This document shows, piece by piece, positions 4,159 through 29,878 of a DNA stretch of 32,167 nt. The translations under genes were made by a program, and so were the position numbers. Where the stretch lies: the IMG/VR virus record IMGVR_UViG_3300023184_002573, positions 1-32,167 of that record; one strand, given 5' to 3'. Source of the stretch: a virus. Each line of letters starts with the position of its first letter. Position 1 is the first letter of the stretch. The notes below the pieces were generated by a model. It saw only the letters and a program-made list of their open reading frames with translations. It was not told where the DNA came from and searched no databases.

Positions 4159-4903
4159 AAAATTCTATTTCCTTTGATAAGTTTCTACTGCGAGGTATAA
4201 ACTCGTTCTCAAGTCTGTAAGTAAGTGTTTCTTTATTTGTGATATGATGGAACCCACGATTGAGTTGACGATCAATCAAGGGTATCTGTGTTTGTATCTG
4301 TAGCTTTCGAGCAAAGCCACCTTCATCCATTGGGCACCACCCATAATAGAATGTCACTAACTTGTCTGTATTATATGTATTCCAGTGCCGTCCCGGTGCC
4401 ATACATTCGTGTGTACTGTTTGCTGGATAGTGTACTGGAACATTATGTAGGCTACGACTACGACGTTCTAAAAAGTTTTGTTGATTGTCGCTAAACATAA
4501 ATCCATCAAACTTTTGTTCATATAATGGACGATCTTGTGTAATACTTTGTTCTCTATTGCAGTCAACAAAAAACACACTAGGTACAAGTAATTGACGAGG
4601 CTGATCATCTAATATTGAATAATCGCCAATCAACTGTTCTGTGACATTTAAACAGATCTTCCACCCTTCTATATCTTGTTCAAGATCGTTTACTTCTGTA
4701 TCAATCGTGTCTGCCTGGAAGTCCAAATTACGGCTAGTTATGACCTCCCATGTTGGACATATTTCTTTAATAATCTCTACGCTACGATCAGTTGAGTGAT
4801 AATCAATCATGATACCATGATCAAATATCTGCTTGTGGTGGTTAAGGAACCACGGTAGCATATACTCTTCGTTATAGAAGTGGCATAGTAACGTCTTCTT
4901 CAT
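4121..4903 (-). CDS. GT2-like glycosyltransferase
   Basis: A 260-residue protein opening with CHFYNEEYMLPWFLNHH, the NEE..L..WL.HH pattern of the Glyco_tranf_2_4/GT92-like group, then DYHSTDRS at residues 34-41, which corresponds to the nucleotide-sugar-binding strand and acidic motif. A second conserved-type block MDEGGF (near residue 197) and HH at 222-223 fit the acceptor side. It likely transfers a sugar in the cytoplasm to the glycan made by this operon. It starts just after the TylF-type gene (2-nt gap) with no clear ribosome binding site, consistent with translational coupling. Confidence 0.75.
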   Translation of the reverse strand: MKKTLLCHFYNEEYMLPWFLNHHKQIFDHGIMIDYHSTDRSVEIIKEICPTWEVITSRNLDFQADTIDTEVNDLEQDIEGWKICLNVTEQLIGDYSILDDQPRQLLVPSVFFVDCNREQSITQDRPLYEQKFDGFMFSDNQQNFLERRSRSLHNVPVHYPANSTHECMAPGRHWNTYNTDKLVTFYYGWCPMDEGGFARKLQIQTQIPLIDRQLNRGFHHITNKETLTYRLENEFIPRSRNLSKEIEFYVNKHKDLSNIL

Positions 4904-4905
4904 TA

Positions 4906-5772
4906 TTAAAATGTGCTGCTAATACTACCGCCTCTATTAGGCATAGAAAATGTTGGTGCTACTACTGCTGGAACTGGATCAGTGTTTTTAAATCTATGAT
5001 CTATTTTGTCAGCATCAATTTCTTTATTTTTTACCCAATATACCGAACTGTTATCAATAGTAATATACTCGCTATCAATACCATGGAATTCTCTATAGTC
5101 CGACAATGCTCGGCGACAATTAGGCAAGCCATAGTCATCAACGATAACATATCCGCCCACTGATAGTTTAGGATATAAGTTTTCTAATGCTACAATAGTT
5201 GACTCATACATATCACCATCTAACCTCAATAATGCTAGTTTTTCTACTTCAAGTGCAGGCAATGTATCGCTGAACCAACCCTTGACAAATTTGACTTGAT
5301 CTGTAAGTAAATCGTATCCAGCAAAGTTTTCTTGTACTTGTTCAAGGCTAACTGCTAAGAATGGTGCTGTGTGATGTGTATCACCTCGATCCACTGGATA
5401 CTCATGATCCTTGGGTGGTGGTAATCCTTGGAAACTATCGCATACGTAAACATTACGATCAGTGACACCATAAGCACGTAAGATAGCTGACATGAATATA
5501 CATGCGCCGCCACGCCATACTCCAGTTTCAATGAAGTCACCTGGAATGTTTTTATCGATCACATCTTCAGCAAGCGTTTGGATATTTAATAATCTTTTGT
5601 TACCAGCCATAGAGTGTGCTAGTACTGGCCAATCTTCTCCAAGTTCTCTAGCAGTTTGATTAAATGCGATTTGCTGACCCTTGCCAGAATCAAATGATGG
5701 ATCTCTGTAGGTTAACCCAAGTATGGTTTTTCTTACTATGTCTAAATACATCTGTCTTAAATTTTGTTCCAT
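4906..5772 (-). CDS. TylF/MycF-type O-methyltransferase
   Basis: A 288-residue member of the TylF (macrocin O-methyltransferase) family. Characteristic sequences are GDFIETGVWRGG at 78-89 (SAM binding), CDSFQGLP at 111-118, LDGDMYEST at 184-192 and VDDYG at 211-215, the latter two carrying the acidic metal and catalytic residues. These Mg-dependent enzymes methylate sugar hydroxyls, either on nucleotide sugars or on finished glycosides. Placed after a 4,6-dehydratase, SDR and C-methyltransferase, it most probably O-methylates the same deoxysugar. The product S-adenosylhomocysteine could be removed by the hydrolase encoded at 11317-12603. Confidence 0.88.
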   Translation of the reverse strand: MEQNLRQMYLDIVRKTILGLTYRDPSFDSGKGQQIAFNQTARELGEDWPVLAHSMAGNKRLLNIQTLAEDVIDKNIPGDFIETGVWRGGACIFMSAILRAYGVTDRNVYVCDSFQGLPPPKDHEYPVDRGDTHHTAPFLAVSLEQVQENFAGYDLLTDQVKFVKGWFSDTLPALEVEKLALLRLDGDMYESTIVALENLYPKLSVGGYVIVDDYGLPNCRRALSDYREFHGIDSEYITIDNSSVYWVKNKEIDADKIDHRFKNTDPVPAVVAPTFSMPNRGGSISSTF

Positions 5773-5784
5773 GATTTGTCCTTG

Positions 5785-6996
5785 TTAATTTGTGCTAACT
5801 ACAGGGAAGTATTTGATGAATACGTCACCTTCTTGATCGCGTTTAGTTTTAATTTTACTACTAATTTCTTTAAAGAAGTTCCATGCCAACGGAACAAATG
5901 CTACTTTGGTATCACCTAGTGAGTCTAATGCATCAATCGCTAGCACAGGAATGCTCATACCTGGACTATATAAACCTTGTTTCATTGGATTATCGTCGAT
6001 GATCATATCTAGTTTAGTCTTACCAAAGTTTAATAGTGTGTTACCTTTAGCTGCCGCTCCATAGCCTACGAGCTTATAGCCAAGTCCTCGATAATGATCG
6101 AGAGTGGAATTTAAATCACCGATGATGGTATAGCAATGATCAGCATAGGCAAGATATGTATTCATGTCTTGTAAGCCTTGTTCACCTTCATGATCCAATT
6201 GAAGTTGTACACTTGGTCTTGCACCTGGATGTTTAGACATCACAAACAAATAACTATTACCATGGATTGGAGTCTTTTGTATATCGATAATATATAAGCC
6301 AGCACGTGCCGCCAATGCAGACATTGAACTACTATTAAAGAAACTTAGATGTTCATGATAGATAGTGTCAAACTCATTGTTCTTGATCATATCAGCTTGA
6401 CTAGTTTGTATGAATAAACGACTTTTATCACCCATAATCTCTTTACATTGTAGTAAAAAGTCCAATGGATAATCATTATGTGCGAACACATTCTGCGCTG
6501 TGATGATATCCAACTGTTTCATCTTGTAGTGATAAACATACTTTTCTTTAAAGTAATCGCATACCACTTCGTGATTAGCATTACTTAATACATGTAGATT
6601 CTCAGCAGGATCAACACCGTAGGTTTTTAAGCCTAGAGCTTTAAATGAATTTAGTTGGCTACCATCGTTACAGGCGATATCTAATACTGTTTGTGGGGGC
6701 ATCTCAAAATATTCTAAAGTGCGTTTAGCAAACCAATCAAAGTAATCACGCAAGGTTTGGCTGGTGCCCGACACATATAGATAATTTTTGAATAGTAAGT
6801 CTGGGTTAACGGCGTGACTTAATTGTAAGTGAGTACATTCTTCACAGATGTTTAAGCGTAGCGGGAATGTTGGCTCTGCTTCCTCGGCAGTTTTCTTAAA
6901 ACTGTTAGCCAATGGTTGTTCGTTTAAGTCTAATACTAGTTTTAGTCGTTCACTACCACAGCATAAGCATTCATTAAGTTCTTTAGCATCTTGCAT
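5785..6996 (-). CDS. Deoxysugar C-methyltransferase (TylCIII/TcaB9-like)
   Basis: A full-length 403-residue protein of the three-domain sugar C-methyltransferase family. The N-terminal zinc domain has Cys pairs around C10/C13 and C52/C55; the SAM-binding motif DIACNDGSQ lies at 107-115; and the family's catalytic YHEHLSFF block starts at 214. The C-terminal Rossmann-like domain contains GAAAKGNTLLN and IDDNPMKQG. Family members add a methyl group to C3 of a 4-keto-2,6-dideoxy or 4-keto-6-deoxy nucleotide sugar. A GGGAAC site precedes the ATG, which lies within the end of the SDR gene (14-nt overlap). Confidence 0.88.
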   Translation of the reverse strand: MQDAKELNECLCCGSERLKLVLDLNEQPLANSFKKTAEEAEPTFPLRLNICEECTHLQLSHAVNPDLLFKNYLYVSGTSQTLRDYFDWFAKRTLEYFEMPPQTVLDIACNDGSQLNSFKALGLKTYGVDPAENLHVLSNANHEVVCDYFKEKYVYHYKMKQLDIITAQNVFAHNDYPLDFLLQCKEIMGDKSRLFIQTSQADMIKNNEFDTIYHEHLSFFNSSSMSALAARAGLYIIDIQKTPIHGNSYLFVMSKHPGARPSVQLQLDHEGEQGLQDMNTYLAYADHCYTIIGDLNSTLDHYRGLGYKLVGYGAAAKGNTLLNFGKTKLDMIIDDNPMKQGLYSPGMSIPVLAIDALDSLGDTKVAFVPLAWNFFKEISSKIKTKRDQEGDVFIKYFPVVSTN

Positions 6997-7906
6997 GTTC
7001 GGGTTCCCAATTATAAATTATATATTTGTCTCTCCACTGTGGGCGAGCTTGTTCGTACTGTTCTAATAAACTATCTACTATTGTAGCAGGCGTTTCTTGA
7101 AAAGTAAAATCGTATGTCTGTTCAAATAGTGTTGTATCTAGAGCAAAATCATAGGCATTGGCTGTTGTACCTTTATCTATAATATCTACTCTCAATTTAT
7201 CACTAACTGCCTGGGCAATTTCTCCCACAGTGCCGTTAAAGCTGGCTAAATTATAAATGCCAGGCATTGGTTGTTCAATACAGCGAACAACTGCACGACA
7301 CAGATCTTCAATACCTAACATAGCGCGGCTGATGTGTTTGTTTGTTACCTGTATACCTGTACCAAGTTGTACACTATGATACATGCTATTGATCATCACA
7401 TCAACACGCAAGTTTGGTGCCCAACCATTAACTGTGCCAAAGCGTAGACCAATCACACGCTTACCTTTAAGGTTAGCAATAGTTGCCTGTTGATCTAATG
7501 CGTACTTTGTTACGTCATAGTTGTTAACTGGAGTAAAGTGTGTGTTAGTTTCTTTGTGGCGTTCACCCGGCTTACTGTTACCGTATACACTAGCTGAACT
7601 TGCATAGATAACCAATTGATCATCTAGTTTAGCTAATAAGTCTGTGAAGTTAGTTACATTGTTTAACCATGGACCTGGCAAGTCTCCCTTACAACTCGGC
7701 ACGCTACTGTGTCCAGCTAAGACTATAATAACATCAAACTCTGCTAGTTCTTCTCTAGTAAGTTTGTGATAGTCACGACTGTCACTGGTTTCATCATAGG
7801 CAAACCACCCGCAGTCATTGGATTTTACAAAGTGATGATCACCTAGAACTTGACGTAGTCTACTTCCAATGTATCCATTACCACCTAGAATTAATACTTT
7901 TTTCAT
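6983..7906 (-). CDS. NAD(P)-dependent epimerase/dehydratase (extended SDR)
   Basis: A 307-residue extended short-chain dehydrogenase. GGNGYIG at 8-14 is the dinucleotide-binding loop; YASSASVYG at 101-109 supplies the Ser and YDVTK at 130-134 the catalytic Tyr and Lys. In this context it is a good candidate for the 4-ketoreductase or epimerase that finishes the C-methylated deoxysugar. The start overlaps the stop of the upstream gene by one nucleotide (TGATG). Confidence 0.88.
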   Translation of the reverse strand: MKKVLILGGNGYIGSRLRQVLGDHHFVKSNDCGWFAYDETSDSRDYHKLTREELAEFDVIIVLAGHSSVPSCKGDLPGPWLNNVTNFTDLLAKLDDQLVIYASSASVYGNSKPGERHKETNTHFTPVNNYDVTKYALDQQATIANLKGKRVIGLRFGTVNGWAPNLRVDVMINSMYHSVQLGTGIQVTNKHISRAMLGIEDLCRAVVRCIEQPMPGIYNLASFNGTVGEIAQAVSDKLRVDIIDKGTTANAYDFALDTTLFEQTYDFTFQETPATIVDSLLEQYEQARPQWRDKYIIYNWEPEHARC

Positions 7907-8643
7907 CAGTCAATGATCATCATGCCATTAGGTGCGATGTTACCCTGCAATCCTACAGTTTCTAATTCAACTAATTTATCCTTAGGGATAAATTTAGCCA
8001 TTGCATGCTCATTGTCGATATATTTGTTTTGATTAAATAATCCTACCATGGTTTCAATAATTTTGTTATACATACCGATAGTATCAGCTAATAGACTAGG
8101 AGTAAATGACCATAGACGTGTTTGCAATAGCGTATTAACGCCAGTGTCAGCCGGGTTGATCCAACTTGGTTGAGCTTTTTTAAACACATACTTGTCTTTG
8201 GTAGTAGCATTATCAAACTTAGCAATGTCGAACTTATCTGTAACCCGATAGCGACCGCTGAGCTTAAAAATACGATCAGCACCTTTAACTTCTTTCATCA
8301 TGGCTTTGTTATTGCTGATGTATGTCAGAGCTTTCATGATACCTAATGCTTCCATGGCATTCTTGCCAATATCATAATTTTGAACATTGTCATGGAAATA
8401 TTTGATATCAGCGTCATCGCTGTTGTCGATATAATAGTCAACTAGGTCAATGAGTTCTTCAAACTCTGCACTGGTGTCATTCTGTACATCAACTTTGCTG
8501 TTGTCTACGAGAATAACAACTGCGCCAGGAATATATTTCTTAGCACTCTTAGCTGTGTCTAGGGTCTGTTGGATACGTTGTGTGGGATCATAGATACCAT
8601 AGTTAGTATATACTGCTGATGTTAGTAATACGATATTTTTCAT
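7906..8643 (-). CDS. Glycosyltransferase-like protein with KLSGRYR motif
   Basis: The start is placed at ATG 8641-8643, with AAGGA upstream; a longer frame upstream lacks this site and would overlap rmlB. The 245-residue product begins with a beta strand (MKNIVLLTSAVYTNYG) and contains KLSGRYRV near the middle, a pattern seen in poorly described phage and LPS-type glycosyltransferases (WavE-like). A sugar-transfer role in the deoxysugar operon is plausible, but no DXD motif stands out, so the call is tentative. Confidence 0.6.
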   Translation of the reverse strand: MKNIVLLTSAVYTNYGIYDPTQRIQQTLDTAKSAKKYIPGAVVILVDNSKVDVQNDTSAEFEELIDLVDYYIDNSDDADIKYFHDNVQNYDIGKNAMEALGIMKALTYISNNKAMMKEVKGADRIFKLSGRYRVTDKFDIAKFDNATTKDKYVFKKAQPSWINPADTGVNTLLQTRLWSFTPSLLADTIGMYNKIIETMVGLFNQNKYIDNEHAMAKFIPKDKLVELETVGLQGNIAPNGMMIID

Positions 8644-8651
8644 ATTAGTCC

Positions 8652-9683
8652 TTATTCGCAACGTAACCAACGGTCGTTCTTCAATGTCCATTGTACAACT
8701 TCACCAATACGTTCTGTTAAACTAACCTTAGGTTCCCAACCTAAACTGCGCATGTAGTCACCACTCAGTGCATAACGCAGGTCATGTCCTGGACGTGAGC
8801 TATGGAAGTCGACCATTTCGTACTTCAATTCTTTTCCTTGCGCATCAGCGATAATCTGTGCTAGTTGTAAATTATTAATTTCTTGTTTGCCTACTAGATT
8901 GAACTTAGGACATTTAGCATCACCATAGTCTGCTTCTAGCTTAGTACTATCTAATCCTAACAAGAACATCATAGCATCTGCTACGTCTGCCGCATGGATG
9001 TAGAAACGACTGCCTGGAATAGTACGGGTCGCATCACTGTGGATAGTGATAGCATCGCCATCGTTTACCTTACGGATACACATTGGAATAAACTTCTCTG
9101 GGTGTTGGCGTTGACCAAACACGTTCATAGTATGTGTGATGTAGATAGGTAATTTGTAGGTATTTTCAAACGCTACTGCTAGTTCTTCGCCGCCGGCTTT
9201 GGTTGCTGAATATGGATTACTAGAATTGTAACGATCACGTTCACCATAGTTCACACCATTGGGTGCTGGACCAAATACTTCATCAGTTGAGAAGTAAATG
9301 AAACGTTCTAGATTTTTTAGTTTACGGCTAAACTCTAAGATATGGCCTGTACCTACTACATTATCCCAGACAAACTCCATTGGGAATTCAATGCTACGAT
9401 CAACATGGCTACCTGCGGCTAAATGTAAGACATAATTCACATCACCAATGTCACGAACTACCATCGGGTTTAATTCAGCACGTAGATCATGGAAGACAAT
9501 CTTCACACGCTTTTTGGTGTCTGCATCAAAATCGGCCATCATATCTGATAGACGATTTAGATTACCCGAGAAGTCTAGTCTGTCTAAGCTGACTACGTTC
9601 CAATCGGTATTTCTTAAAATATTTTCAATAACGTGGTGTGCGATAAAACCCGCACCGCCAGTCACTAAGACGGTTTTTGACAT
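8652..9683 (-). CDS. rmlB: dTDP-glucose 4,6-dehydratase-like protein
   Basis: A 343-residue extended SDR. TGGAGFIAHH at 8-17 binds NAD; STDEVFG at 132-138 supplies the Thr-Asp-Glu set diagnostic of nucleotide-sugar 4,6-dehydratases; YSATKAG at 158-164 has the catalytic Tyr/Lys; MNVFGQRQHPEKFIP matches the substrate-binding block. It would make a 4-keto-6-deoxy sugar, the entry point for the methyltransferases downstream. No RmlA homologue is obvious in this operon, so the dTDP-glucose (or other nucleotide sugar) may come from the host. TGGAG precedes the ATG and a late-type motif lies 40 nt upstream. The exact nucleotide and sugar are not decided by sequence. Confidence 0.88.
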   Translation of the reverse strand: MSKTVLVTGGAGFIAHHVIENILRNTDWNVVSLDRLDFSGNLNRLSDMMADFDADTKKRVKIVFHDLRAELNPMVVRDIGDVNYVLHLAAGSHVDRSIEFPMEFVWDNVVGTGHILEFSRKLKNLERFIYFSTDEVFGPAPNGVNYGERDRYNSSNPYSATKAGGEELAVAFENTYKLPIYITHTMNVFGQRQHPEKFIPMCIRKVNDGDAITIHSDATRTIPGSRFYIHAADVADAMMFLLGLDSTKLEADYGDAKCPKFNLVGKQEINNLQLAQIIADAQGKELKYEMVDFHSSRPGHDLRYALSGDYMRSLGWEPKVSLTERIGEVVQWTLKNDRWLRCE

Positions 9684-9722
9684 TGATATACTCCAGTTTT
9701 CGTTGAATTCACTACTTTTTAG

Positions 9723-9730
9723 TATTTATT
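9723..9730 (-). promoter_or_regulatory. Possible T4-type late promoter motif
   Basis: Minus-strand AATAAATA followed by CTA lies about 40 nt before the rmlB start codon. It differs by one base from the T4 late consensus TATAAATA and would leave a leader holding the TGGAG site. Similar octamers lie at 1853-1860 and 25381-25388. In AT-rich DNA such octamers arise by chance, so this is tentative. Confidence 0.35.
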
Positions 9731-9752
9731 TTAGCAAAAATCAGCGGAAAAA

Positions 9753-9914
9753 TTATGCCGCTACTGTATTTGCTACTTTAGCTTCTACGTATTCTTTAAT
9801 GAATTTGATAGCTTTGCGACTAGTATCAAATACATATTCTGTAGTATCATCTTCTTGTGTTAGGATCACCACGAATCCATTTTTTACTTTACGAATTTCA
9901 ATTGAATCAAACAT
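9753..9914 (-). CDS. Hypothetical 53-aa protein
   Basis: A 53-residue protein starting at ATG 9912-9914, with AAGAGGAAA upstream, immediately downstream of the consensus promoter at 9947-9975. The product alternates beta-like (IEIRKVKNGFVVILT) and helical charged segments. No family was recognised. It is the first gene of the deoxysugar transcript; its position suggests strong expression. Confidence 0.65.
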   Translation of the reverse strand: MFDSIEIRKVKNGFVVILTQEDDTTEYVFDTSRKAIKFIKEYVEAKVANTVAA

Positions 9915-9946
9915 TTTGTTTCCTCTTATAAGATTATTACCTTATA

Positions 9947-9975
9947 ATAGTAACAGGTTTAACTAAGTTTGTCAA
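9947..9975 (-). promoter_or_regulatory. Strong sigma70-type promoter for the deoxysugar operon
   Basis: Minus-strand TTGACA (9970-9975), 17-nt spacer, TACTAT (9947-9952). It starts directly after the T-run of the porin terminator, so the terminator and promoter insulate the porin from the operon downstream. The first start codon is 33 nt past the -10 box. Confidence 0.8.
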
Positions 9976-10006
9976 GAAAAAGCCCCACCGAAATGAGGCT
10001 TTTTTT
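9976..10006 (-). terminator. Rho-independent terminator after the porin
   Basis: AAAAAGCC and GGCTTTTT form a stem that extends with one mismatch into CA/TG, closing a short loop. On the minus strand the arm is followed by TTTTTCTT. It lies about 25 nt past the porin stop codon. The arm is flanked by A/T runs on both sides, so it might work in both directions, but no plus-strand gene needs it. Confidence 0.85.
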
Positions 10007-10032
10007 GGCTTTATCGAACTAAGAAATCAATC

Positions 10033-11196
10033 TTAGAAGAATAAGATCGCACCTGCTGAGTATGTATCGCTCTTGTTAGAAACACCACTATGTGCTTCTG
10101 ACTCAACTCGATTGTATTCAGCTACTAAGTTTAAATGCTTAGTAAGTGGGTGGTAAGCACCAACAGTGATACGTTCGTTGCTGTCGACTAGGCTTGATGA
10201 ATCTGATGCGTTAGCCTTGTCTAGATTTGATACACCGTATGCTAGACCAAGTTTTGTCTTGATTGGCAATGTATATGTACCTTGGACATAGTAACCATCT
10301 GAATCACGTTTGTTGCCCGATGCATCAGCACCGTTTGAACCAAATGTTGTTGTACCAGCACCTTCACCTTTATAGTAGTAACCAGTTAGACCAACTGCGC
10401 CGTATGATGCTGTAGCACCAATGTCGCCAGCCCAAGCTGTGTATTCACCACCTGTTGTAGGTTGAACTTTGTAGCTTGCGCCCGAAGTCCAAACTTTGGT
10501 GTTGATACCATTTGTAGCAAATGTGTAAGACACTTTACCTTCTAGACCAAAACGGTCTTGGTTAAGTGAATTTTGACTTGCTTGGTTAGGGTTAGTAATA
10601 CCAACAGTTGCTTGTAAACCGTTCATGTTAGGTGTTGTGTATGAGATTTGACCTTTCCATGCTGGATAGATATAACCACTACCAATACCACCTAGTGTTG
10701 TGGCAGCGCCACTTACACCAGCACCAGCACCAACGCCCAATAATGTCATATCGTTTAAGATAGCATCACTTGCAAAAATACCAATGTCTTTACCTAACTT
10801 AATTGAACCCCATGATTTGTCACCAAACGATAGATACGCTTGACGATTTAATGGAGTACTAGAATCACCAGCTGCACTGTTGTCAGAAGCATTTGGTTGG
10901 AAGCTGATCGTGAATTCTACATCAAGATCATTTTGACGAGTTTTACCTGTAAAACCTAACCATGATGGTAGTAGGCCAGTGTTAATACCCATTGCGTCTT
11001 TTTCACCAAGTGAATCTGGTTTAGCTGCTAAGCCACCTGTAATTACATTATTACCATGAGCTTTAGTGTAGTTAGCAAAAGCGTTAACGTTACCGTTTAC
11101 ATCTAATGTCCACTCACCAGCTGGGATAACAATACCAGCGTTTGCTGATGTTGCGAACAAACCTGCTAGCATTGTTGCGATTAATGATTTCTTCAT
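10033..11196 (-). CDS. Gram-negative outer-membrane porin, complete
   Basis: The start is set at ATG 11194-11196, preceded by AGAGGAAA. The 387-residue product has a textbook signal peptide (MKKSLIATMLAGLFATSANA, cleavage after residue 20), then a long run of short alternating beta strands rich in Gly, Ser, Thr and Tyr, and ends GAILFF with the terminal Phe needed for BAM-dependent assembly. NGNVNAFANY near the mature N-terminus and KLGKDIGIFASDAIL (loop 3 region) fit porins of the betaproteobacterial type. It should form a general diffusion pore in the host outer membrane. It has its own terminator and lies after ahcY with no clear sigma70 promoter; an inverted repeat occupies its leader. 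A full porin gene is very unusual in a T4-like phage. Confidence 0.9.
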   Translation of the reverse strand: MKKSLIATMLAGLFATSANAGIVIPAGEWTLDVNGNVNAFANYTKAHGNNVITGGLAAKPDSLGEKDAMGINTGLLPSWLGFTGKTRQNDLDVEFTISFQPNASDNSAAGDSSTPLNRQAYLSFGDKSWGSIKLGKDIGIFASDAILNDMTLLGVGAGAGVSGAATTLGGIGSGYIYPAWKGQISYTTPNMNGLQATVGITNPNQASQNSLNQDRFGLEGKVSYTFATNGINTKVWTSGASYKVQPTTGGEYTAWAGDIGATASYGAVGLTGYYYKGEGAGTTTFGSNGADASGNKRDSDGYYVQGTYTLPIKTKLGLAYGVSNLDKANASDSSSLVDSNERITVGAYHPLTKHLNLVAEYNRVESEAHSGVSNKSDTYSAGAILFF

Positions 11197-11230
11197 TATG
11201 ATTTCCTCTTTGTTTAATTTGTTGCAAAAA

Positions 11231-11255
11231 TGCCACAAAATAATATTTTGTTGCA
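11231..11255 (-). repeat. Inverted repeat in the porin leader
   Basis: TGC-x-ACAAAATA and TATTTTGT-x-GCA flank a single central base: 12-nt arms with one mismatch. It lies 35-60 nt ahead of the porin start codon. The symmetry suits a dimeric repressor site; as RNA it would be a weak AT-rich hairpin. The rest of the 120-nt gap between ahcY and the porin shows no strong sigma70 promoter; a weak late-like CTAAATAA lies at about 11270. Confidence 0.6.
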
Positions 11256-11316
11256 CATAAGCCACGTTTTTATTTAGCCAGGTGGCCGAGAGGTAATAAT
11301 ATTACTTAATGATTTT

Positions 11317-12603
11317 TTAATAACGATAACTATCAGGCTTATATGGACCATCGACCGCAACGCCAATATATGTGGCTTGATCAGCGGTTAATGCTGTTAA
11401 TTCTGCACCAATCTTGGCTAAATGTAATTGAGAAACCTTCTCATCCAAATGTTTTGGCAGTAGATATAAATGTCCAATTTGATAATCTTCAGTATTAGTA
11501 AACATTTCGATCTGTGCTAGGACCTGATTAGTAAAACTGTTTGACATAACATAACTAGGATGTCCAGTAGCACAACCCAAGTTCACTAGTCGACCTTTAG
11601 CAAGGATAATGATCTTATTGCCGTTTGGTAAGGTTACATGATCTACCTGAGGTTTGATCTCGTCCCAGACTAGATCTTGGATACCAGCAATATCAATCTC
11701 ACTGTCAAAGTGCCCAATGTTACATACGATACTATTATGTTTCATCTTCACCATGTGTTCGCGTGTGATAATATCGATGTTACCTGTGGCTGTTACAAAG
11801 ATGTCTGCCTTGTCTGCGGCATAGTCCATTGTTACTACACGATAGCCTTCCATGGCTGCCTGTAGTGCGCAGATAGGATCAATCTCAGTTACCCATACCT
11901 GTGCTGATAATGCACGAAGTGCGGCCGCTGATCCTTTACCTACATCACCAAAGCCAGCTACTACTGCTACCTTGCCTGCGATCATCACATCAGTTGCACG
12001 TTTGATACCGTCTACTAGACTTTCTCTGCAACCATACAAGTTATCAAACTTAGCTTTGGTTACTGAATCATTTACGTTGATAGCACGTAACTTAAATTCA
12101 CCTCGAGCCATGGCTTCATTGATCTTATGGATACCTGTAGTTGTTTCTTCTGTAACACCACGGATACCTTCTAATAGTCCCGGATGATGTTTGTGTACAT
12201 AATAAGTTAAATCATGGCCATCATCAAGTAACATATTTGGCCGCCAGTCATCTGGACCACTAACTGTCTGTTCAATACACCACCAATATTCTTCTTCTGT
12301 TTCGCCTTTCCAAGCAAATACCGGAATACCTTGATCAGCCAGTGCGGCGGCGGCGTGATCCTGTGTTGAAAATATGTTACATGATGACCAACGCACTTCT
12401 GCACCTAAAGCAATTAGTGTTTCAACTAGCACAGCAGTCTGGATTGTCATGTGTAACGATCCAGCGATACGTGCGCCTTTAAGTGGTTGCGCTTCTTTAA
12501 ATTCTTCTCTAACAGCCATTAAGCCTGGCATTTCTGTTTCGGCGATAGCGATTTCTTTGTGCCCCCAATCAGCTAAACTTATATCTTTTACTTTGTAATC
12601 CAT
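11317..12603 (-). CDS. ahcY: S-adenosyl-L-homocysteine hydrolase
   Basis: A full-length 428-residue SAHase. It splits S-adenosylhomocysteine into adenosine and homocysteine in the cytoplasm. Visible landmarks are [11 protein letters not shown] at 79-89, the [11 protein letters not shown] catalytic block at 178-188, the NAD-binding [10 protein letters not shown] at 217-226, [10 protein letters not shown] near 345, and the C-terminal KPDSYRY that contributes to the neighbouring NAD site. One oddity is DDGHD at 127-131, where the usual sequence is DDGGD. It closes the acyltransferase/desaturase operon (1-nt gap after the desaturase stop region). Its logical role is to relieve product inhibition of the several methyltransferases encoded here and to recycle homocysteine. 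Confidence 0.95.
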
Positions 12604-12604: not shown

Positions 12605-13384
12605 TTAATCCTTTATTTGTTTGAAAGTTAATTTTTGAACATAAAAATCTATGTTTAGCCATTTCCATATGCCTGTTCCATAATATGGTTCAGTTTGCGT
12701 TTGATCATTGTCATGGTGATAATGATGCCAACATTGGCTGCCGTAAACTAAGACTAACCAATTTTTATCCTCAATTTTTAATTTATGTGTTACCCAATCA
12801 ATAGTTTTCCATATAAACAACCATGACCACATCGGAAATATAAACCAAGCAACAAAGGTCCACAATGATGTTAATGTTACACATAATATAATGTTAGCAG
12901 CACAGATCCACGCCCAATATTTTTGAAAGAATCTATATAATTTAGTATCTTGAACCTGTATCCTATCAGGATCAACATGATGCCAGGGGCTTGGGGCCGT
13001 CATATCTAAACAATATAATATAGGGTTAGTTGCTAGATCTATTTTACTTTGTGTAGGGTCTTTATCGGTCTCGTAAAATTCATGATGTTTCCAATGGAAT
13101 GAAATTTTGCTAAATGGTGATTGAAAGTCAAATGATACTATTCTCCAATATCCTAAAAATTCAATAATAGCCCAACGAGGTTTAAGCAACTTATGAACAT
13201 GGAATTCGTGATATATTCCGATATAGATCGAATCAATTATCCGCCAAACAAGAAAACTAATAGCAAATTGCCATAATGGTACAAAGAAAAACGAAGGCAA
13301 TATTAAAAACATTAGCCAAAATCCTCGTCTGGCATTAAATTTACTAAACAGGAATAAAAATTTATCTTTTAATAATTGTATCAT
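12605..13384 (-). CDS. Membrane fatty-acid desaturase/hydroxylase-like protein
   Basis: I prefer ATG 13382-13384 (259 residues), 2 nt after the upstream stop and with GAGA ahead; a TTG at 13390 is the alternative. The protein has several hydrophobic segments and three His clusters in desaturase order: HEFHVH near 59-64, HWKHH near 97-101 and WHHYHH near 219-224, plus a further His in WVTHK. Such boxes bind a di-iron centre in fatty-acid desaturases and sterol/fatty-acid hydroxylases at the inner membrane. It is divergent from the clear desaturase two genes upstream, so the reaction could be hydroxylation or desaturation. Its chemistry cannot be read from sequence. Confidence 0.78.
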
Positions 13385-13386
13385 GA

Positions 13387-14994
13387 TCAATCTCGCATAA
13401 ATTCTGGTGCGTTAAACTTATAATCTACTTCTATTTCTGTTGTTGGGGATGTAGAATAATTAATTTTTTTCCATAACAAATTTTGGTACATATTAAATCG
13501 AGAATGTTTCGCTAGACGTAGCTTATGCCAATTCACTTCACGCAGCTTGGTACTACGGGCTTCTTTAAAGTCAAATCCCAAATTGGCAATTTGGAAGCTC
13601 ATCGAAGCACGCATATTATTTACCTGCCACATTCTACGGCTAAAACTTTGTTCAAGTTCTAAAGCACGATGTAGGTCCATATGCGGACTTTCCCATACCA
13701 CTGTCTCATTCATAAATTGTGCTTCTAGTTCTGTAATATCTTTTTCTTTCTTTACTTTATATCCAAATTTTGAAAAGTCTGTACCAAACACACTAAGATA
13801 ATTCGCATATCCTTCGGGCTGAATCCATAAAGTATAAAAATCAGATGAGTCGATTGCAATCTCTCCTGATTCTATCCTTTCAACTGTTGATGTTACTTGT
13901 TCCTCTGACTCTAAAGGTAATCCTATAATAAAAGAAGAATGCAATAATAAGTCATTACCATAGCGACGTTTTAATTCAGATATTGTTTTAATTAATCTAT
14001 CTGGATCACCACCCTTGCCGATAATTTCACCAGTCGGCGCATGCATACTTTCTAAACCAAAATGTGCTCCACGCCAGCCGCTTTCAAATAATAAATCCAT
14101 AGTATGAGGTTTTGCTGCTATTAGATCTAATCGAATATATGCCCAATATTCTAATTGGAATGGTAAACTTTTACTAACTTGAAGTATCATTTCTAGTTTT
14201 TCTACACTATCATTAAATGTATCATCTAAGAAAAAATACCTAGTAATACCAAAGGTCTCGTAGTTATACAATAATTCTTGTTTTAACAAATCAACATTTT
14301 TAATATAATCTAATTTCTTTTTTCCGTTCAACGGGTATGAACAAAATTTACATCTGAAGATACACCCTCGAGATATTTCAATCGGTAGTGTTTCACCGGG
14401 AAGTATTATATCCTGAGAGCGCCATTGCATTTTATTATTAACAAAATCAAAACTTTCAGCACCGGCACCATCAATCACAGTAATACCATATAAATTTTTA
14501 ATCCAATTCTTAGGTTTAGATGTTTTATCTATTAGATGTTTTGCAAACTCAACTATAACAGTATCAGCATATCCCTTAAAAATATAATCAACATTTTTGT
14601 TACTAACAGTAACCAGTGCTTTTGGGCCACCTAGAATAATTTTACAATTTGGATTTTTTTGTTTAATAGCTTGGCATAGTTGATTACCTTGATCAAACCC
14701 ATGAGGCAACAAAGTATTTTTATCAGAACGAGAATATTGTATCTCACCAGTTTCTGTTGGATGTTGCCCCATTACTTTGTAAAAAAAATTATTAAATCCA
14801 ACAAATAATGTATTTTCATTTACTAAATGAACTACTGTCTTAATAAGTTCGTCAATGGTCCACATGTTTAAGTGGTGTATCACTGTAGTATCAATCCCTT
14901 GTTCTCTTAGGGCATTAGCAACCGTATACGGGCCCACATTCTTATTAAGAAATATTGGGTCAGTAATATCACTTAATAATACAGCATTATACAT
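13387..14994 (-). CDS. Radical SAM protein with N-terminal B12-binding-like domain
   Basis: A 535-residue protein. Residues 1-160 form a Rossmann-like region resembling cobalamin-binding domains, with LGGPKA at 121-126, but I see no clear DxHxxG, so B12 binding is doubtful. The radical SAM cluster motif is C211xxxC215xxC218 within ISRGCIFRCKFCSYP. HFGLESM follows, as in the MiaB/Elp3-like barrel. Proteins of this type (BchE-like and P-methylase-like) do methylations, ring formations and rearrangements. Located between two desaturase-like genes (TAATG overlap upstream), a lipid or isoprenoid substrate is a reasonable guess, but only from context. Confidence 0.85.
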   Translation of the reverse strand: MYNAVLLSDITDPIFLNKNVGPYTVANALREQGIDTTVIHHLNMWTIDELIKTVVHLVNENTLFVGFNNFFYKVMGQHPTETGEIQYSRSDKNTLLPHGFDQGNQLCQAIKQKNPNCKIILGGPKALVTVSNKNVDYIFKGYADTVIVEFAKHLIDKTSKPKNWIKNLYGITVIDGAGAESFDFVNNKMQWRSQDIILPGETLPIEISRGCIFRCKFCSYPLNGKKKLDYIKNVDLLKQELLYNYETFGITRYFFLDDTFNDSVEKLEMILQVSKSLPFQLEYWAYIRLDLIAAKPHTMDLLFESGWRGAHFGLESMHAPTGEIIGKGGDPDRLIKTISELKRRYGNDLLLHSSFIIGLPLESEEQVTSTVERIESGEIAIDSSDFYTLWIQPEGYANYLSVFGTDFSKFGYKVKKEKDITELEAQFMNETVVWESPHMDLHRALELEQSFSRRMWQVNNMRASMSFQIANLGFDFKEARSTKLREVNWHKLRLAKHSRFNMYQNLLWKKINYSTSPTTEIEVDYKFNAPEFMRD

Positions 14995-15827
14995 TACTGA
15001 TCTATTCTCATCTTTCCAGCGTCAGTTTGCGGTCCAGGCACTGCTAGGAATTTTTCAATAAACCAAGCACTGATGTCACTTTCACCTTTTTTAACAGCAA
15101 AGTCGTATAATTGCGCATTAGCATGATGATTATTGTGTAGTCCTTCACCTAGGCTAAATGTCTGCACCCATTGATTATTTGTACTTGTATCAACTGTTTC
15201 AAAGTTACGATATCCCCAACTATGCCCCACACAGTTTACCCATACGTTTAATTCAATATGATAGATTAAACTTGGTAATGCTAGTAGATATAATGTTAAG
15301 TGCCAATCGACTAATAAGGTAATAGCTGTTAATGCTCCCCAAATTTTATAATAATGATCATGGATGAATCTATATGTAGGGTGTATTAATAAGTCTCGTG
15401 GAGTCATTCCGCCACGACTCATAAACCAACTCAAACTTTGAAATTCCCAAATTCCCAATGCTGTATATAAACGTCCATCGTTTTTAGGACTGTGCCAATC
15501 CATTGGTTGATCAACTACTTTATGATGTTGGCGATGGTTTCGAGCGTATTGTATAGGACTACCTACTCCTAATAATAAACTTGTCCAGGCCATCAGACGT
15601 TCACCAAATGGAGTGGTATTAAAACTCTTATGGCTAAAATATCGATGCATACCTATACTGTGCCCGATTAGCTGTATAATTTTACTCCAAACAAGTGCAG
15701 CTAACAACCACCAAGCACTTACGTCGACAAATATAAGATATATCGCATAAAAACTAATTAGGTAAATCGTTCCTAAAAACAATCTATATTTGTTAGTGTT
15801 AATTTTCTTTTTTAAGTATTCCAACAT
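14994..15827 (-). CDS. Acyl-CoA/acyl-lipid desaturase (delta-9-like)
   Basis: A 277-residue integral membrane protein with the three canonical His boxes of delta-9 desaturases: H56SIGMH61, H98RQHH102 and H231NNHH235, and the conserved GEGLHNNHHA block. Hydrophobic segments at about 18-50, 80-92 and 165-190 give the usual two hairpins. It introduces a cis double bond in fatty acyl chains using O2 and a reductant, which must come from the host. The 5-nt gap to the acyltransferase upstream and the one-base overlap with the radical SAM gene indicate one operon. Confidence 0.9.
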   Translation of the reverse strand: MLEYLKKKINTNKYRLFLGTIYLISFYAIYLIFVDVSAWWLLAALVWSKIIQLIGHSIGMHRYFSHKSFNTTPFGERLMAWTSLLLGVGSPIQYARNHRQHHKVVDQPMDWHSPKNDGRLYTALGIWEFQSLSWFMSRGGMTPRDLLIHPTYRFIHDHYYKIWGALTAITLLVDWHLTLYLLALPSLIYHIELNVWVNCVGHSWGYRNFETVDTSTNNQWVQTFSLGEGLHNNHHANAQLYDFAVKKGESDISAWFIEKFLAVPGPQTDAGKMRIDQ

Positions 15828-15832: not shown

Positions 15833-16564
15833 TTATCCTGAAATATTTCGTTCTTGTTCATCTGGATCTACATCATTTCTTCGCATCATTTTACCGCTGT
15901 ATAACGCAGTGGTTCCTGGCTCCATGCTTTTAACTACATACGCATGTCCATGAACTTTAACATCATCGCCTAATGTTAAAGTTTCGCCGTAACGGCCAGG
16001 AACTACAGTTGCATTACATCCAATAAACACATTATTACCTGCTTTGACTCCGCCTGCTAAGAATCCCTTAACGCTAACAAAACAGTTTTCACCCATTTCA
16101 ACATCGTGACCAAAAGCGGCATAATCAAGTGCTTCACAAAAGTCGCCCCATTTAACATCATCACGGACATCTACCCATCGTCCAGTATATGCGCCTCTAC
16201 CAAGGGTGCTACCTCTGCTAATTTTAGTTTCGGGGTGTATTAAACTATGAACTGGTAGATCCAGATCTTTAATCAATTTGAGTCGTTCTTTACGTAGATT
16301 ATACCCACTTTCTTCTGGTTTGCCGGCACGACTATTGCCATCCCAGCTATTACCTAGAAAAAACATAGTATCTGCGTATTTTTTAGGATTATTGTATAAG
16401 TCTAATTCACTGCCAATACAATGAACTCCTTTAATTTCATGTCCTACCGGATAGAATTTATCTAAGAATCCCAATACTTCGATCCCTAATAATTCGCAGT
16501 TTTCAGTTAAGAAATCGAATCCCCAACGGCTGCCGATAAAAATAATTGGTTTTTGTTTAGCCAT
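15833..16564 (-). CDS. NeuD/PglD-like sugar O/N-acyltransferase
   Basis: A 243-residue protein with an N-terminal Rossmann-like half (PIIFIGSRWGFDFL, then GFLDK) and a C-terminal left-handed beta-helix made of hexapeptide repeats (GRGAYTGRWVDVRDDVKWGDFCEAL through VFIGCNATVVPG). This is the layout of NeuD and PglD acetyltransferases, which acylate amino or hydroxyl groups of sugars. AAGGACAG precedes the ATG; the promoter at 16588-16616 lies just upstream, making this the first gene of the lipid-like operon. The acyl donor and acceptor are unknown; here it might join an acyl chain to a sugar, but ordinary acetylation is more likely. Confidence 0.82.
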   Translation of the reverse strand: MAKQKPIIFIGSRWGFDFLTENCELLGIEVLGFLDKFYPVGHEIKGVHCIGSELDLYNNPKKYADTMFFLGNSWDGNSRAGKPEESGYNLRKERLKLIKDLDLPVHSLIHPETKISRGSTLGRGAYTGRWVDVRDDVKWGDFCEALDYAAFGHDVEMGENCFVSVKGFLAGGVKAGNNVFIGCNATVVPGRYGETLTLGDDVKVHGHAYVVKSMEPGTTALYSGKMMRRNDVDPDEQERNISG

Positions 16565-16587
16565 ACCTGTCCTTATGATATAATAAT

Positions 16588-16616
16588 ATTATTACAGTAA
16601 ATTTAAAGTTTTTCAA
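16588..16616 (-). promoter_or_regulatory. Sigma70-type promoter for the acyltransferase-desaturase operon
   Basis: Minus-strand TTGAAA (16611-16616), 17-nt spacer and AATAAT (16588-16593), 24 nt before the acyltransferase start codon. The -35 box overlaps the end of the small interrupted reading frame at 16603-16752. Confidence 0.6.
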
Positions 16617-16752
16617 GTTGGCTAGCAGAAGGGATCTGCATACGGATATTGCGGCGTTCTACGTGTAACACAGTAGTAAAAGGGTTGCAACTACCCTAAG
16701 CGTCTAAGATACCGGCGTCAATGAATATTGGCGCTGCAACATTATTTATCAT
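16603..16752 (-). other. Small reading frame interrupted by an in-frame TAG
   Basis: An ATG at 16750-16752 overlaps the stop of the 68-aa gene as ATGA. It opens 18 codons ending ILDA, then TAG, then continues in the same frame for 30 sense codons (GSCNPFTTV... to SASQLEKL) and ends TAA at 16603-16605. The second part has the look of real protein, with amphipathic and charged residues, and contains an internal GTG and ATG. Possibilities are a nonsense-inactivated gene, stop-codon readthrough (context TAG-GGT), two tiny genes, or chance. None of the seven tRNAs seen has a CTA anticodon, so no suppressor is encoded here. If this is not a gene, the 184-nt gap holds only the promoter. Confidence 0.4.
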
Positions 16753-26137: not shown

Positions 26138-27039
26138 TTTACAAATCTTTCTTTGGGTGGTCGTGTTATACCAACAGGTTTAAGCAAAGACGTTCCTTTG
26201 ATTTTTGTACCTGCTTGTTTAAGTTTAGATTCTGTAGCATCAACATTTTTATTAAAAATACCGTCAACTGTGGGCTCACCCGCTTCTTCTGGGATTACCG
26301 TTTGTTGAGGGATCCAATCGATGTAATAGTTTTCTTTATCTAACCACGGCATGATAACTTCTTCTTGTTTTAGGTACCCATTTTTAGTAATACTTTGTAC
26401 TACACTCGGATGTAATAAATTCTTATCAGCTAAATCAAACCAAGAGGTATTTTTAGGATCCATCGGTTCTACATCACTCTTATATACAGCCATTTGTATC
26501 CAGGGATCATTGAACCGTTTTAATAGATAAGCATCTCGACAATCAAATCCATTGACTGCCAACATATACATTAAACTAGTAGGGGTGTAATTATGATAGC
26601 AATTATTATAAGTTCTACTATAATATCTATTATTTTCTACACCATTACTTTGTGGCACATGTAAAACTAACATGCCGTTAACTGTCATTTGCTCATTCCA
26701 AAAACGTAGTGTTTCCAATGGATTATGGCTATATTGTAGGCTATCATGACTCCACATGAGATCAATACTAACTGGTAATATTTGTTTTTCAGTAAAATCT
26801 CTATTGATTTTATTAATATTAGCAAGATCAGGAACTTGACTTAATTTGCTCGGATCTTGATCAACAGCAAAACAATTATAATTATACGGCTCTGGTGGAT
26901 CATCCTTGCTTTCTAACATTGCCCACCATGTGATATCACTGCCAGTGCCACAGCCCATGTCACAGATGGTGCGTAGACTTTCTAAGAAAGTGTCGTATCC
27001 GTTAATGAGATCTAATGTTTTTTGATTATGATTAGCCAA
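26134..27039 (-). CDS. SAM-dependent methyltransferase, TTG start
   Basis: A 301-residue protein with an N-terminal class I methyltransferase domain: DMGCGTGSD at about 27-35 (motif I), FAVDQDPSKL (motif II, acidic ribose contact) and DLMWSHDSLQYSHNP (post-motif). The C-terminal ~100 residues hold Pro, Lys and Asn in a likely flexible tail. The start is TTG at 27037-27039: GGAGGA lies 8 nt before it and it overlaps the uvsY-like stop by 8 nt, which decides the start. The substrate is unknown. Confidence 0.8.
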   Translation of the reverse strand: MANHNQKTLDLINGYDTFLESLRTICDMGCGTGSDITWWAMLESKDDPPEPYNYNCFAVDQDPSKLSQVPDLANINKINRDFTEKQILPVSIDLMWSHDSLQYSHNPLETLRFWNEQMTVNGMLVLHVPQSNGVENNRYYSRTYNNCYHNYTPTSLMYMLAVNGFDCRDAYLLKRFNDPWIQMAVYKSDVEPMDPKNTSWFDLADKNLLHPSVVQSITKNGYLKQEEVIMPWLDKENYYIDWIPQQTVIPEEAGEPTVDGIFNKNVDATESKLKQAGTKIKGTSLLKPVGITRPPKERFVK

Positions 27040-27487
27040 TTGATGCGTCCTCCATACCTGCTGTTCTTAAGCGTGTCACGTGTCCTAGCATGAAATTCTT
27101 GCTTTCTAACCCTTTCATGATACCCAGCCAACGATTACGCAATAGTGCTACTTCGTTGATGATTGTTTCAAAGTCAATGACTTCATCCTCGCCATCAACA
27201 TATTTTTCTACGTCACGACTTGTTAATGCACGTTGATAGTTTTCTAAGTATTTCTTAAAGTGTTTAGTACGTATCTTGCGTAGTTGAATATTTAGATAGT
27301 TGAGAACCGCTTCAATCTCTTGTAGTTGATTAAAGCGTCTTTCAGTGATACCAGGCAGGCCAGCAAGATTCTTTTCTATGTTGCCATAGACCCCAACTTC
27401 TGTTTTGGCATCATCCAGTTCTTTTTCATAGTGATCTATAAAGTCTGGAATACTGCCTAAACTTGCAACTACACGACTATACCACAT
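27032..27487 (-). CDS. uvsY: UvsY-like recombination mediator
   Basis: A 151-residue, mostly helical protein. Its C-terminal part (LLRNRWLGIMKGLESKNF... GHVTRLR) follows the pattern of T4 UvsY (YWGILLDFCSGALDAIKSRGF... IQDMR). The middle is highly charged, with KHFKKYLENYQRALTSRD typical of UvsY of T4-like marine phages. UvsY loads UvsX onto gp32-coated ssDNA. Position two genes after uvsX and three after gp32 strongly supports it. The start overlaps the previous stop by one base (TAATG). Confidence 0.78.
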   Translation of the reverse strand: MWYSRVVASLGSIPDFIDHYEKELDDAKTEVGVYGNIEKNLAGLPGITERRFNQLQEIEAVLNYLNIQLRKIRTKHFKKYLENYQRALTSRDVEKYVDGEDEVIDFETIINEVALLRNRWLGIMKGLESKNFMLGHVTRLRTAGMEDASIG

Positions 27488-27732
27488 TAGTAGTCATCAC
27501 CGTCATCTTCTTCGTCAGCGATCGCTTCATCTTCTTCATCGCCAAGATATTCTTTAACAGCACGACCTAGATAAGCATCGGTGCCGCCAAATGTTTTAAG
27601 TTCACTTTCAGTGATATTGTGATCAGCCGCAACACTAATCACGTGATCTGCGGCGGCTTGACGATCTTTAGGATTGATATACTCTTTACAAGTAAGCCAA
27701 ACTTCACTGGCGATATCTAATTCAATGCTCAT
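27487..27732 (-). CDS. Acidic 81-aa protein between uvsX and uvsY
   Basis: An 81-residue protein with a helical N-terminal 60 residues and a strongly acidic tail (last 18 residues almost all Asp/Glu). It starts within the uvsX stop (ATGA) and ends at the uvsY-like start, so it is probably made in balance with them. Its acidic tail may mimic DNA or bind recombination proteins; no family was recognised. Confidence 0.6.
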   Translation of the reverse strand: MSIELDIASEVWLTCKEYINPKDRQAAADHVISVAADHNITESELKTFGGTDAYLGRAVKEYLGDEEDEAIADEEDDGDDY

Positions 27733-28808
27733 TCTGCTGTCTCCTCTTCTGTTTCTTCAACTACTTTTGATTCAGTACTTAGCAGATTAACATTAGAACT
27801 AAGTTCTTTCATTACTTTATCTAAACAACCATCTTCGTTGCGTTCCCATGCTTTGCGGAATTGTTTGATAGTCGTTTTATCAGCAAAAGTGTAAACTAAA
27901 CTGTTACCTTCTTTCTTAAGCAAGTTTTTAGCTTCTAACATGTCTGTTAATCCGCTGTATGGACTCATACCTGTTTCATATGGAATCTCAACTTGTACTG
28001 ACTCAAACGGTTTAGCATATCTAGTCTTCATGATCTTACAAGCTGCACGGATACCATTTACAGTTGTAGTCTTATTACCATCAGCATCTGTTTTAAGTTT
28101 AAGTTTACGCATCGCAACAACGATACTTGAAGCATAGATAAATCCTTGACCACCCGAAATCTTATCATCTGGGTCAAACATGTCTTGACTAGCGTATGTG
28201 TGATTCGTACAAACTAATCCAAGGTTCAATGTACCAAACATGTTCACGCAGTTACGTACAAGTGCTGTAAGTGCTTTAGGTTTACGACCCATATCACCTT
28301 TCATCTCACCTGCTTCAAACTGGTTAACGTCTGTCGGAGTTAACATCATACCTAATGAATCTAGAACAAACAATACTTTGGGACGGTCTTCTTCTGGTAG
28401 TGTGCGATACTCTTTAACAAAGTCACTGATAACTTTGGCCACATCATCAATCATAGCCATGTTAAGTTTAAGAAGTTTTTCTTCACTGGTATCTACACCC
28501 AATGCGTGTAGCCATGCTTCATCTAGTGCGTTTTCTGTATCAATCAAGATAACGTAAATGCCTTGCTCTTGTGCGTGACGCACAATGTTGCCTGAACAGA
28601 TAAACGATTTACCTGCGCCTGATTCTCCAGCAAACACAGTTACTTTACCCATCGGAATACCTCTTTCAAAGTTGCCAGATAGTAAGTAGTTTAATGTGTA
28701 GTTGCCGGTGCTGATCCAATCTGTAGGATCGTTAAAGCCAATACCTAAACCGTCGATTGACTTGGTGATTGACTTTCTAAATTTTGATATATCGAATGGT
28801 TTTGCCAT
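27729..28808 (-). CDS. uvsX: UvsX-type RecA-like recombinase
   Basis: A 359-residue RecA/Rad51-fold protein. The Walker A motif is GESGAGKS at 61-68 and Walker B VLFVLD at 145-150; LIDTENAL at about 88-95 and ISGGQGFIYASS fit the catalytic Glu region and DNA-binding loop 2 respectively. It performs homologous pairing and strand invasion for recombination-dependent replication in T4-like phages. It lies directly downstream of the gp32 gene, separated by a hairpin at 28832-28853, with GAGGACA before the ATG. The acidic tail (EETEEETAE) is typical of phage UvsX. Confidence 0.95.
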   Translation of the reverse strand: MAKPFDISKFRKSITKSIDGLGIGFNDPTDWISTGNYTLNYLLSGNFERGIPMGKVTVFAGESGAGKSFICSGNIVRHAQEQGIYVILIDTENALDEAWLHALGVDTSEEKLLKLNMAMIDDVAKVISDFVKEYRTLPEEDRPKVLFVLDSLGMMLTPTDVNQFEAGEMKGDMGRKPKALTALVRNCVNMFGTLNLGLVCTNHTYASQDMFDPDDKISGGQGFIYASSIVVAMRKLKLKTDADGNKTTTVNGIRAACKIMKTRYAKPFESVQVEIPYETGMSPYSGLTDMLEAKNLLKKEGNSLVYTFADKTTIKQFRKAWERNEDGCLDKVMKELSSNVNLLSTESKVVEETEEETAE

Positions 28809-28867: not shown

Positions 28868-29878
28868 TTAAGAAGTTTTTTGTCTATTACGAATCATCGC
28901 TAAGATGTCTTCAGCACGTGCTGTTCCACCTGCTGGAGGTGTCGCAACTGGCGCTGTAGGAGACGCTGGTGCAGCCTCTGCGACCACTGGAGCGACCACA
29001 GCTGGAGCGGATTCAAATTCTTCATCTGCCACTGCTGGTGTTGCTGTTTGTGCTACAGGTGTAGCTGATTCAGCTGTAACGATTGTTACACCTCTTGGTT
29101 TGTAATAATTACCCCAACGTTCTGCATCATATGCTTGACCATCTACTGACGCTTCAAACATTTCTTTCATGACTTTAAGTTCAACTTCGCTTGGTTTCTT
29201 AGGTAAGAAATCTTTCAAATTGTATAAGCCATGAGTTTCAATTGCCGCAGCTTCTTCTGCTGTAAGTGCAGATTCTTTGCGTGACCATTTACTAGTCGAA
29301 TAATCAGCATAACCACCTTTTGATGTTTTAGTAACTGTAAAGTCTAAACCACCTTGGTAGTCTGTTGGTAAGTTTTCTAACTCTGGATCAAGTAATGCTG
29401 ACTTGATCAAGTTAAAAATCTGTGGACTAATGATAAATCTACGAATTGGATTTTCTGGTGTCTTATCGTCTGTGATAGGATTCTCACGCACGAAACCTTG
29501 GAACAAGTATGATCTTTTCTTCCAATACTTACGACCCATTTCTTCTAAACTAGTGTCTTTAAACCAAGTACGTACTTCTGCTAATATTGGACATGCTTCG
29601 CCCCACATCTCAACGCATGGTACTTGTACAGTGACTGGTTTACTATCAGCTTGGCCTTTAACGCCAGCAAACGGTAAATTGATCATTGCTCGTTCTGCCC
29701 AAAAGAATGTGTTTTTTGTGTCTGCGTCTGGAAGGAATCTAATACGAGCGTTTGTGCCTTCTTGGATGTTCCAGTGTGCGTAGATAGCGTTGTCGCCACC
29801 ACTTTGTGAATTACCGCCTGTGCCACGGTTTTCTGATGCTTGTAACTTTGCACGGATTTCTGCTAATGATGTTGCCAT
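28868..29878 (-). CDS. 32: gp32-like single-stranded DNA-binding protein
   Basis: A 336-residue protein with the gp32 architecture: a basic N-terminal segment (ATSLAEIRAKLQAS), an OB-fold core opening around YAHWNIQEGTNARIRFLPD, and GRKYWKKRSYLFQGFV at 115-130, a strongly conserved-type DNA-contact block. The core shows only two Cys (88 and 96), so the T4 His-Cys3 zinc site is incomplete. Residues 255-320 are an Ala/Pro/Val/Thr-rich linker and the tail ends AEDILAMIRNRQKTS. It covers ssDNA and organises replication and recombination with UvsX/UvsY. AAGGAG precedes the ATG. Confidence 0.92.
   Translation of the reverse strand: MATSLAEIRAKLQASENRGTGGNSQSGGDNAIYAHWNIQEGTNARIRFLPDADTKNTFFWAERAMINLPFAGVKGQADSKPVTVQVPCVEMWGEACPILAEVRTWFKDTSLEEMGRKYWKKRSYLFQGFVRENPITDDKTPENPIRRFIISPQIFNLIKSALLDPELENLPTDYQGGLDFTVTKTSKGGYADYSTSKWSRKESALTAEEAAAIETHGLYNLKDFLPKKPSEVELKVMKEMFEASVDGQAYDAERWGNYYKPRGVTIVTAESATPVAQTATPAVADEEFESAPAVVAPVVAEAAPASPTAPVATPPAGGTARAEDILAMIRNRQKTS

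Follow-up and report, generated by a model that had tools for sequence, protein, structure and literature searches.

The locus described here raises the question of what a phage that kills its host would do with a complete gene for an outer-membrane porin. The gene lies in a 32-kb IMG/VR virus fragment, the 32,167 nucleotides of which are referred to as the window; all coordinates are those of the window.

The porin gene and its phage

The following features of the window identify the gene, its neighbours and the phage.

10033..11196, minus strand: porin gene of the Porin_4 family, 387 aa (reading frame, profile match, structural model, selection in relatives)
11137..11196, minus strand: signal peptide MKKSLIATMLAGLFATSANA (from sequence; cleavage site judged by eye)
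11317..12603, minus strand: ahcY (S-adenosylhomocysteine hydrolase), normally found directly upstream of the porin position, which is called the slot below
8652..9683, minus strand: NAD-dependent epimerase/dehydratase, which normally flanks the slot on its other side and is preceded by a separate AATAAATA at 9729
27729..28808, minus strand: UvsX recombinase, a phage marker, nearest isolates jumbo phages
28868..29878, minus strand: gp32-like single-strand DNA binding protein, a phage marker, with AATAAATA 84 nt upstream (29962)
27032..27487, minus strand: UvsY-like recombination mediator, a phage marker

A sequence-only reading had placed a complete porin gene at these coordinates, correctly and without giving the strand. 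The reading frame is intact from the ATG at 11196 to the stop codon at 10035..10033, and the product matches Pfam Porin_4 (PF13609) over nearly its whole length (residues 8-367; E 7.5e-26; score 92 bits, cut-off 27). Signal peptide, β-barrel and terminal Phe had been described as intact, and all three were recovered: by eye, the signal peptide ends in ANA and the C-terminus reads ...AGAILFF, with a terminal FF, while the AlphaFold2 model, of moderate confidence (pLDDT 74, pTM 0.74), is a barrel. DSSP assigned 17 strand segments to this model, a number that would fit a 16-stranded porin if one strand were interrupted or a short additional segment present. The nearest solved structures found with VIA-align were DcaP (Z 28.1), BpsOmp38 (26.0), PorB (25.8) and Omp32 (25.7), and Foldseek likewise supported the porin fold; the structural prediction suggested earlier as a check thus returned a porin, at Z 25-28 to solved porins. 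By profile and model the gene encodes a complete Gram-negative general porin with a predicted 16-stranded barrel of the OmpF/Omp32 type, and a trimeric diffusion pore in the outer membrane is predicted.

The description of the phage as T4-like holds in a broad sense, as indicated by UvsX, UvsY and the gp32-like protein; jumbo phages, and not T4 itself, are its relatives. Comparison of the window UvsX gave Phosso, Atu_ph07, XbC2, CBB and GAP32 as nearest isolates (66-68%), and comparison of gp23 of the related record G003 gave Phosso (72%), a Vibrio phage (69%) and PA5oct-type phages (67%). On these two comparisons the phage is placed in the T4 superfamily, nearest to jumbo isolates such as Phosso, PA5oct and CBB. 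The carrier may itself be a jumbo phage, all records studied here being fragments.

Recurrence, host origin and selection

Relatives of the porin were found in 23 IMG/VR records besides the window, eight in a first scan (one of them, L009, with only a 43-residue end of the porin) and 15 more in an alignment scan. Among the 24 records including the window, 21 have a Porin_4 match, 12 a terminase and three gp23. The bacterial matches all have titles that name Methylophilaceae or broader labels compatible with this family, and a homologue is present in 140 of 187 Methylophilaceae genomes. These matches support Methylophilaceae porins as the donors and bear out the betaproteobacterial source proposed earlier.

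A phylogeny against betaproteobacterial porins had been recommended as a check; on a tree of 58 rows the phage porins fall in three places. Clade A consists of the window and L002-L007 (100/99), clade B is equally distinct (100/100), and C is a single long branch, L048. Supported branches force at least three changes among the phage rows. Three separate captures from hosts are the natural reading of this tree; one capture followed by losses is possible. Both clades A and B are under purifying selection, with pairwise dN/dS values of 0.08-0.33 and 0.06-0.18, respectively. Absence from all related phages together with a broken frame, which the sequence-only reading had named as grounds for abandoning the gene, is not what was found, given the 23 other records, the intact frame and the purifying selection. 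Host-derived and kept under selection in many phages, the porin would qualify as an auxiliary metabolic gene.

Frequent swapping of the porin between phage lineages is only partly supported. In the AhcY tree a branch (99/98) sets the porin-A carriers apart, a grouping that UvsX does not reject (AU 0.49), so the class A porin largely follows the phage lineage. L003 is a clear mosaic: its porin and leader group with the window, its AhcY with L004-L007 and its UvsX with L007.

Control region

Four elements were recognized around the porin gene.

11271..11277, minus strand: T4 late-promoter-like motif CTAAATA, 81 nt upstream of the porin ATG
11221..11265, minus strand: 5'-UTR hairpin (pairing and covariation over 14 leaders)
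11203..11210, minus strand: purine-rich ribosome-binding region AAGAGGAA (from sequence)
9982..9999, minus strand: intrinsic terminator stem, followed by a T run (folding; form conserved in relatives)

ATAAATA or CTAAATA lies 62-82 nt before the ATG in all 16 distinct phage porin leaders and in none of the 45 host porin leaders listed (two of them incomplete); one host leader has a copy, at 142 nt. In the structural regions of G014 and G019 (80 kb), 26 of 37 motif copies are intergenic by a manual tally from the listing, against 8.7% of bases that are intergenic DNA. Genes directly following the copies include those for sheath, tube, baseplate, tape-measure-like and hub proteins; the sheath was identified via PHROGs, a tail-sheath Pfam search of the records being uninformative. 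Such placement is the appearance of T4 late promoters. A gp55 homologue was found in one of the 24 records, G019; all of these records are fragmentary. Further late-promoter-like motifs lie on the coding strand of the window at 9729, 29962, 25388, 16749, 1859 and 712, and a sigma-70 scan gave nothing above chance. From its sequence and position, the motif in the porin leader appears to be a T4-type late-promoter core of the kind common to the structural genes, and the porin is apparently turned on by a phage late promoter.

An inverted repeat in the leader had been called operator-like. The repeat is real (11251-11235), and it forms the tip of the 5'-UTR hairpin. Its position downstream of the promoter-like motif and the compensatory changes make an RNA hairpin the better reading; an operator is not favoured. 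Across 14 such leaders, 83.5% of cells are paired, compared to 36-50% when the structure is slid. Covariation was higher than in all 500 shuffles and all slid controls, a figure that is not a probability and is inflated by sequence relatedness. The leader of the window alone has an unremarkable folding energy (z -1.2). The claim that the gene has its own terminator was confirmed: the stem at 9982-9999 folds at -14.3 kcal/mol (z -3.1), and a stem-loop with a T run follows the porin stop codon in every relative with sequence there. A simple consensus terminator scanner did not report this stem, probably because flanking A and T tracts lengthen it.

A slot for different outer-membrane proteins

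Among the 80 closest AhcY-bearing viral loci, a porin is present in 14 and another outer-membrane protein in the same place in others: type D in 12, type E in three and type F in one. Types D (196 aa) and E are small barrels; type F is cut short. Most of these other occupants lie 115-120 nt below ahcY, and types D, E and F have the leader and a signal peptide of the form MKK[TS]L[IL]ATL[IL]AGL in common with the porins. Indeed, L113 (type D) and L002 (porin A) have leaders that are identical over ~80 nt. Collection-wide scans with two leader patterns gave 23 matches, 22 with a readable start, and all 22 open such an outer-membrane protein, although these matches are not all independent and several of the records had been found before. 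The presence of other barrels behind the same leader and signal peptide in close relatives points to a swappable outer-membrane-protein slot. The sequence-only reading was right about the complete porin and missed this slot, which relatives fill with different barrels.

Type D matches OMP_b-brl (about 1e-8) and is predicted to fold with 10 strands (pLDDT 76), nearest to OpcA (Z 18.5). Homologues, weak at best, were found in four of 187 Methylophilaceae genomes. A role as general diffusion pore is unlikely for types D and E. On balance we favour the view that lytic jumbo-type phages keep a late-expressed cassette of promoter, RNA hairpin and signal peptide, in which unrelated or distant barrels are exchanged by recombination, so changing the surface and permeability of the infected cell. 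Four loci (L121, L125, L152 and L157) have a 187-aa ORF (MSLINTQV...), by eye peroxiredoxin-like, below ahcY at the place of the barrel.

Possible functions of the porin

The core of the constriction loop L3 (residues 143-156) shows 98% identity between the phage A porins and their three nearest hosts, while the extracellular loops show 46%. The pore thus appears to be kept, as the L3 core is host-like while the loops differ. Relatives of the phage also carry a PstS-like protein and Porin_O_P or Porin_5 channels, as well as PQQ methanol dehydrogenase and csgF/csgG; no Porin_O_P match was found in the record of the window itself, a fragment. A Porin_O_P gene is found close to pst genes in OM43 strain NB0046 (PMC5120137). 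In L039 (9304-10731; also in L038 and L040) a Porin_O_P protein has an in-frame PstS-type signal peptide, as if the body of pstS had been deleted, and in L037 and L044 pstS and Porin_O_P are separate genes. In L037 a PQQ-dependent methanol-dehydrogenase-like gene (9453-11318) and csgF, csgG and curlin-repeat genes (3396-7807) adjoin the phage porin.

The best single explanation, tentative and short of an even chance, is that a Methylophilaceae porin was captured into a dedicated swappable slot of a lytic T4-superfamily phage and acts late as a working pore, chiefly for uptake. On the sequence evidence, a large phage of this kind has taken up a general porin of its host and kept it as slot occupant. 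The porin would be transcribed late alongside the virion genes, exported by Sec, folded by the host BAM machinery and assembled in the infected cell's outer membrane into functional trimeric diffusion pores. Its most likely benefit would be that small-solute uptake is maintained or increased at a late stage of a prolonged infection, once host genes have been shut off and a small oligotrophic cell has to yield a large phage genome; hindrance of other phages by the altered surface may be an additional advantage. For the porin version of the slot, uptake is favoured by the kept pore and by the PstS-like, Porin_O_P/Porin_5, methanol dehydrogenase and csgF/csgG genes of the relatives, together with the pst neighbourhood in NB0046. 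Late timing argues against it, since this would leave little time for uptake unless infection is slow, and so does the lack of a Porin_O_P match in the fragment record of the window. Furthermore, uptake cannot explain the slot as a whole, as some occupants are unlikely to be general diffusion pores. The three roles guessed at in the sequence-only reading, replacement of a host porin, a block to superinfection and greater nutrient flow, are distinguished only in part by this evidence.

The fact that the slot also takes barrels that are not general pores makes remodelling of the cell surface a strong rival, possible although rather doubtful. A late barrel would dilute or replace the host receptor and so prevent binding to the cell or its debris, whether by other phages or by progeny of the phage itself, and barrels would be swapped because receptors and competing phages change. 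The Lc porin of PA-2 and the lipoproteins Cor and Llp are precedents. This explanation is supported by the different barrel types found in a single slot after a common leader and signal peptide, types D and E being unlike general porins. Clade A porins have short loops that do not vary in length, with 90 loop residues compared to 93-159 in sister hosts. Extracellular loop 4 has 14 residues throughout phage A, whereas its length is 13-75 in sister hosts and 22-33 in the three hosts nearest to phage A; such loops would also suit evasion of other phages. However, the L3 core is conserved as in the hosts, the loops of phage B are not shortened, and loops diverge no faster between phage and host than between hosts (loops/strands identity ratio 0.74 and 0.66, respectively). 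Moreover, classical exclusion genes act early, not late.

An improbable alternative is that an abundant late barrel stabilises the outer membrane, or finally weakens it as an aid to lysis, with the exact channel of little importance. That barrels differing in size and fold replace one another under a late-type promoter would be expected of such a role, but the strongly conserved constriction loop and low dN/dS point to a channel-specific one, and the window has no lysis genes immediately next to the slot. That the porin is a hitch-hiking host gene without function in the phage is very improbable, common as close homologues are in host genomes, and an assembly chimera was rejected, in view of the 23 other, independent records from many samples with phage neighbours, the phage-specific leader with its late-type promoter, the purifying selection and the supported clades that phage porins form of their own.

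Comparison with known systems

The claim that no porin is established in a lytic T4-like phage stands, in that a search of 50,697 phage records gave no sequence match to the phage porin. These records do include 42 with a relative of OmpC, and the matches listed are from lambdoid or P1-like temperate phages, PA-2 included. The Lc porin of PA-2, the NmpC/OmpD-type porins of lambdoid phages and that of P7 are likewise phage-borne, host-derived and complete porins of the trimeric type. Their carriers are temperate, and they act in lysogens, the surface of which they change. In contrast, the porin described here belongs to the Porin_4 family and apparently to a lytic T4-superfamily phage, where it lies behind a late-type promoter in a swappable slot. 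In this fragment record, the T4-superfamily context and the late-type promoter argue against a lysogenic-conversion porin of the Lc/NmpC type.

Cyanophage pstS is a phage-borne nutrient-uptake gene; its product is a periplasmic binding protein, not an outer-membrane pore, and some relatives of the present phage have both. Two BFVD entries from uncultured Caudovirales (A0A6J5L4P1 and A0A8S5S2G8) are also porin-fold proteins, with 12-14% identity in the fold alignment. The publication that we take to be the source of these entries does not discuss porins.

The Lake Baikal phages VP_139 and VP_266 resemble the present phages: they too are T4-type, have Methylophilaceae hosts and carry genes for methanol dehydrogenase and for the S-adenosylmethionine cycle; the text on them mentions no porin (Coutinho 2020, PMC7678222). 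The OM43 phage Melnitz and pelagimyophages carry csgGF outer-membrane pore genes (PMC9004378). They are similar in being lytic, in their streamlined aquatic hosts and in their outer-membrane channels, csgF/csgG being present in relatives here as well; they differ in that these are curli pores, not porins, and no porin appears in the text on Melnitz. Phage-encoded porins of lytic or Methylophilaceae phages were not found in the open-access literature, and the publications examined on Methylophilaceae or freshwater phages leave porins unmentioned. Porins of temperate phages are known; the lytic, late-controlled and swappable form appears to be new.

Lytic T4-superfamily phages of abundant freshwater and marine methylotrophs carry host-derived porins with late-type signals, which suggests that lytic phages rebuild the surface of the cell that they are killing. 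Whether they manage the outer membrane of the dying cell for nutrients such as phosphate, or for exclusion of rivals, is now testable, and the natural set of exchanged barrels could separate uptake from exclusion.

Other genes of the window

A cluster of seven tRNAs is located at 22881-23973. A membrane protein gene (12605-13390), a radical-SAM gene (13387-14994) and a fatty-acid-desaturase gene (14994-15827) form a row; the membrane protein has no Pfam match and looks similar to the desaturase. A role of this row (12605-15827) in lipid modification is possible. Two long stretches, 3325-9683 and 15833-21575, consist of sugar-nucleotide, glycosyl- and methyltransferase-like genes, which may serve in modification of the surface or of DNA with sugars.
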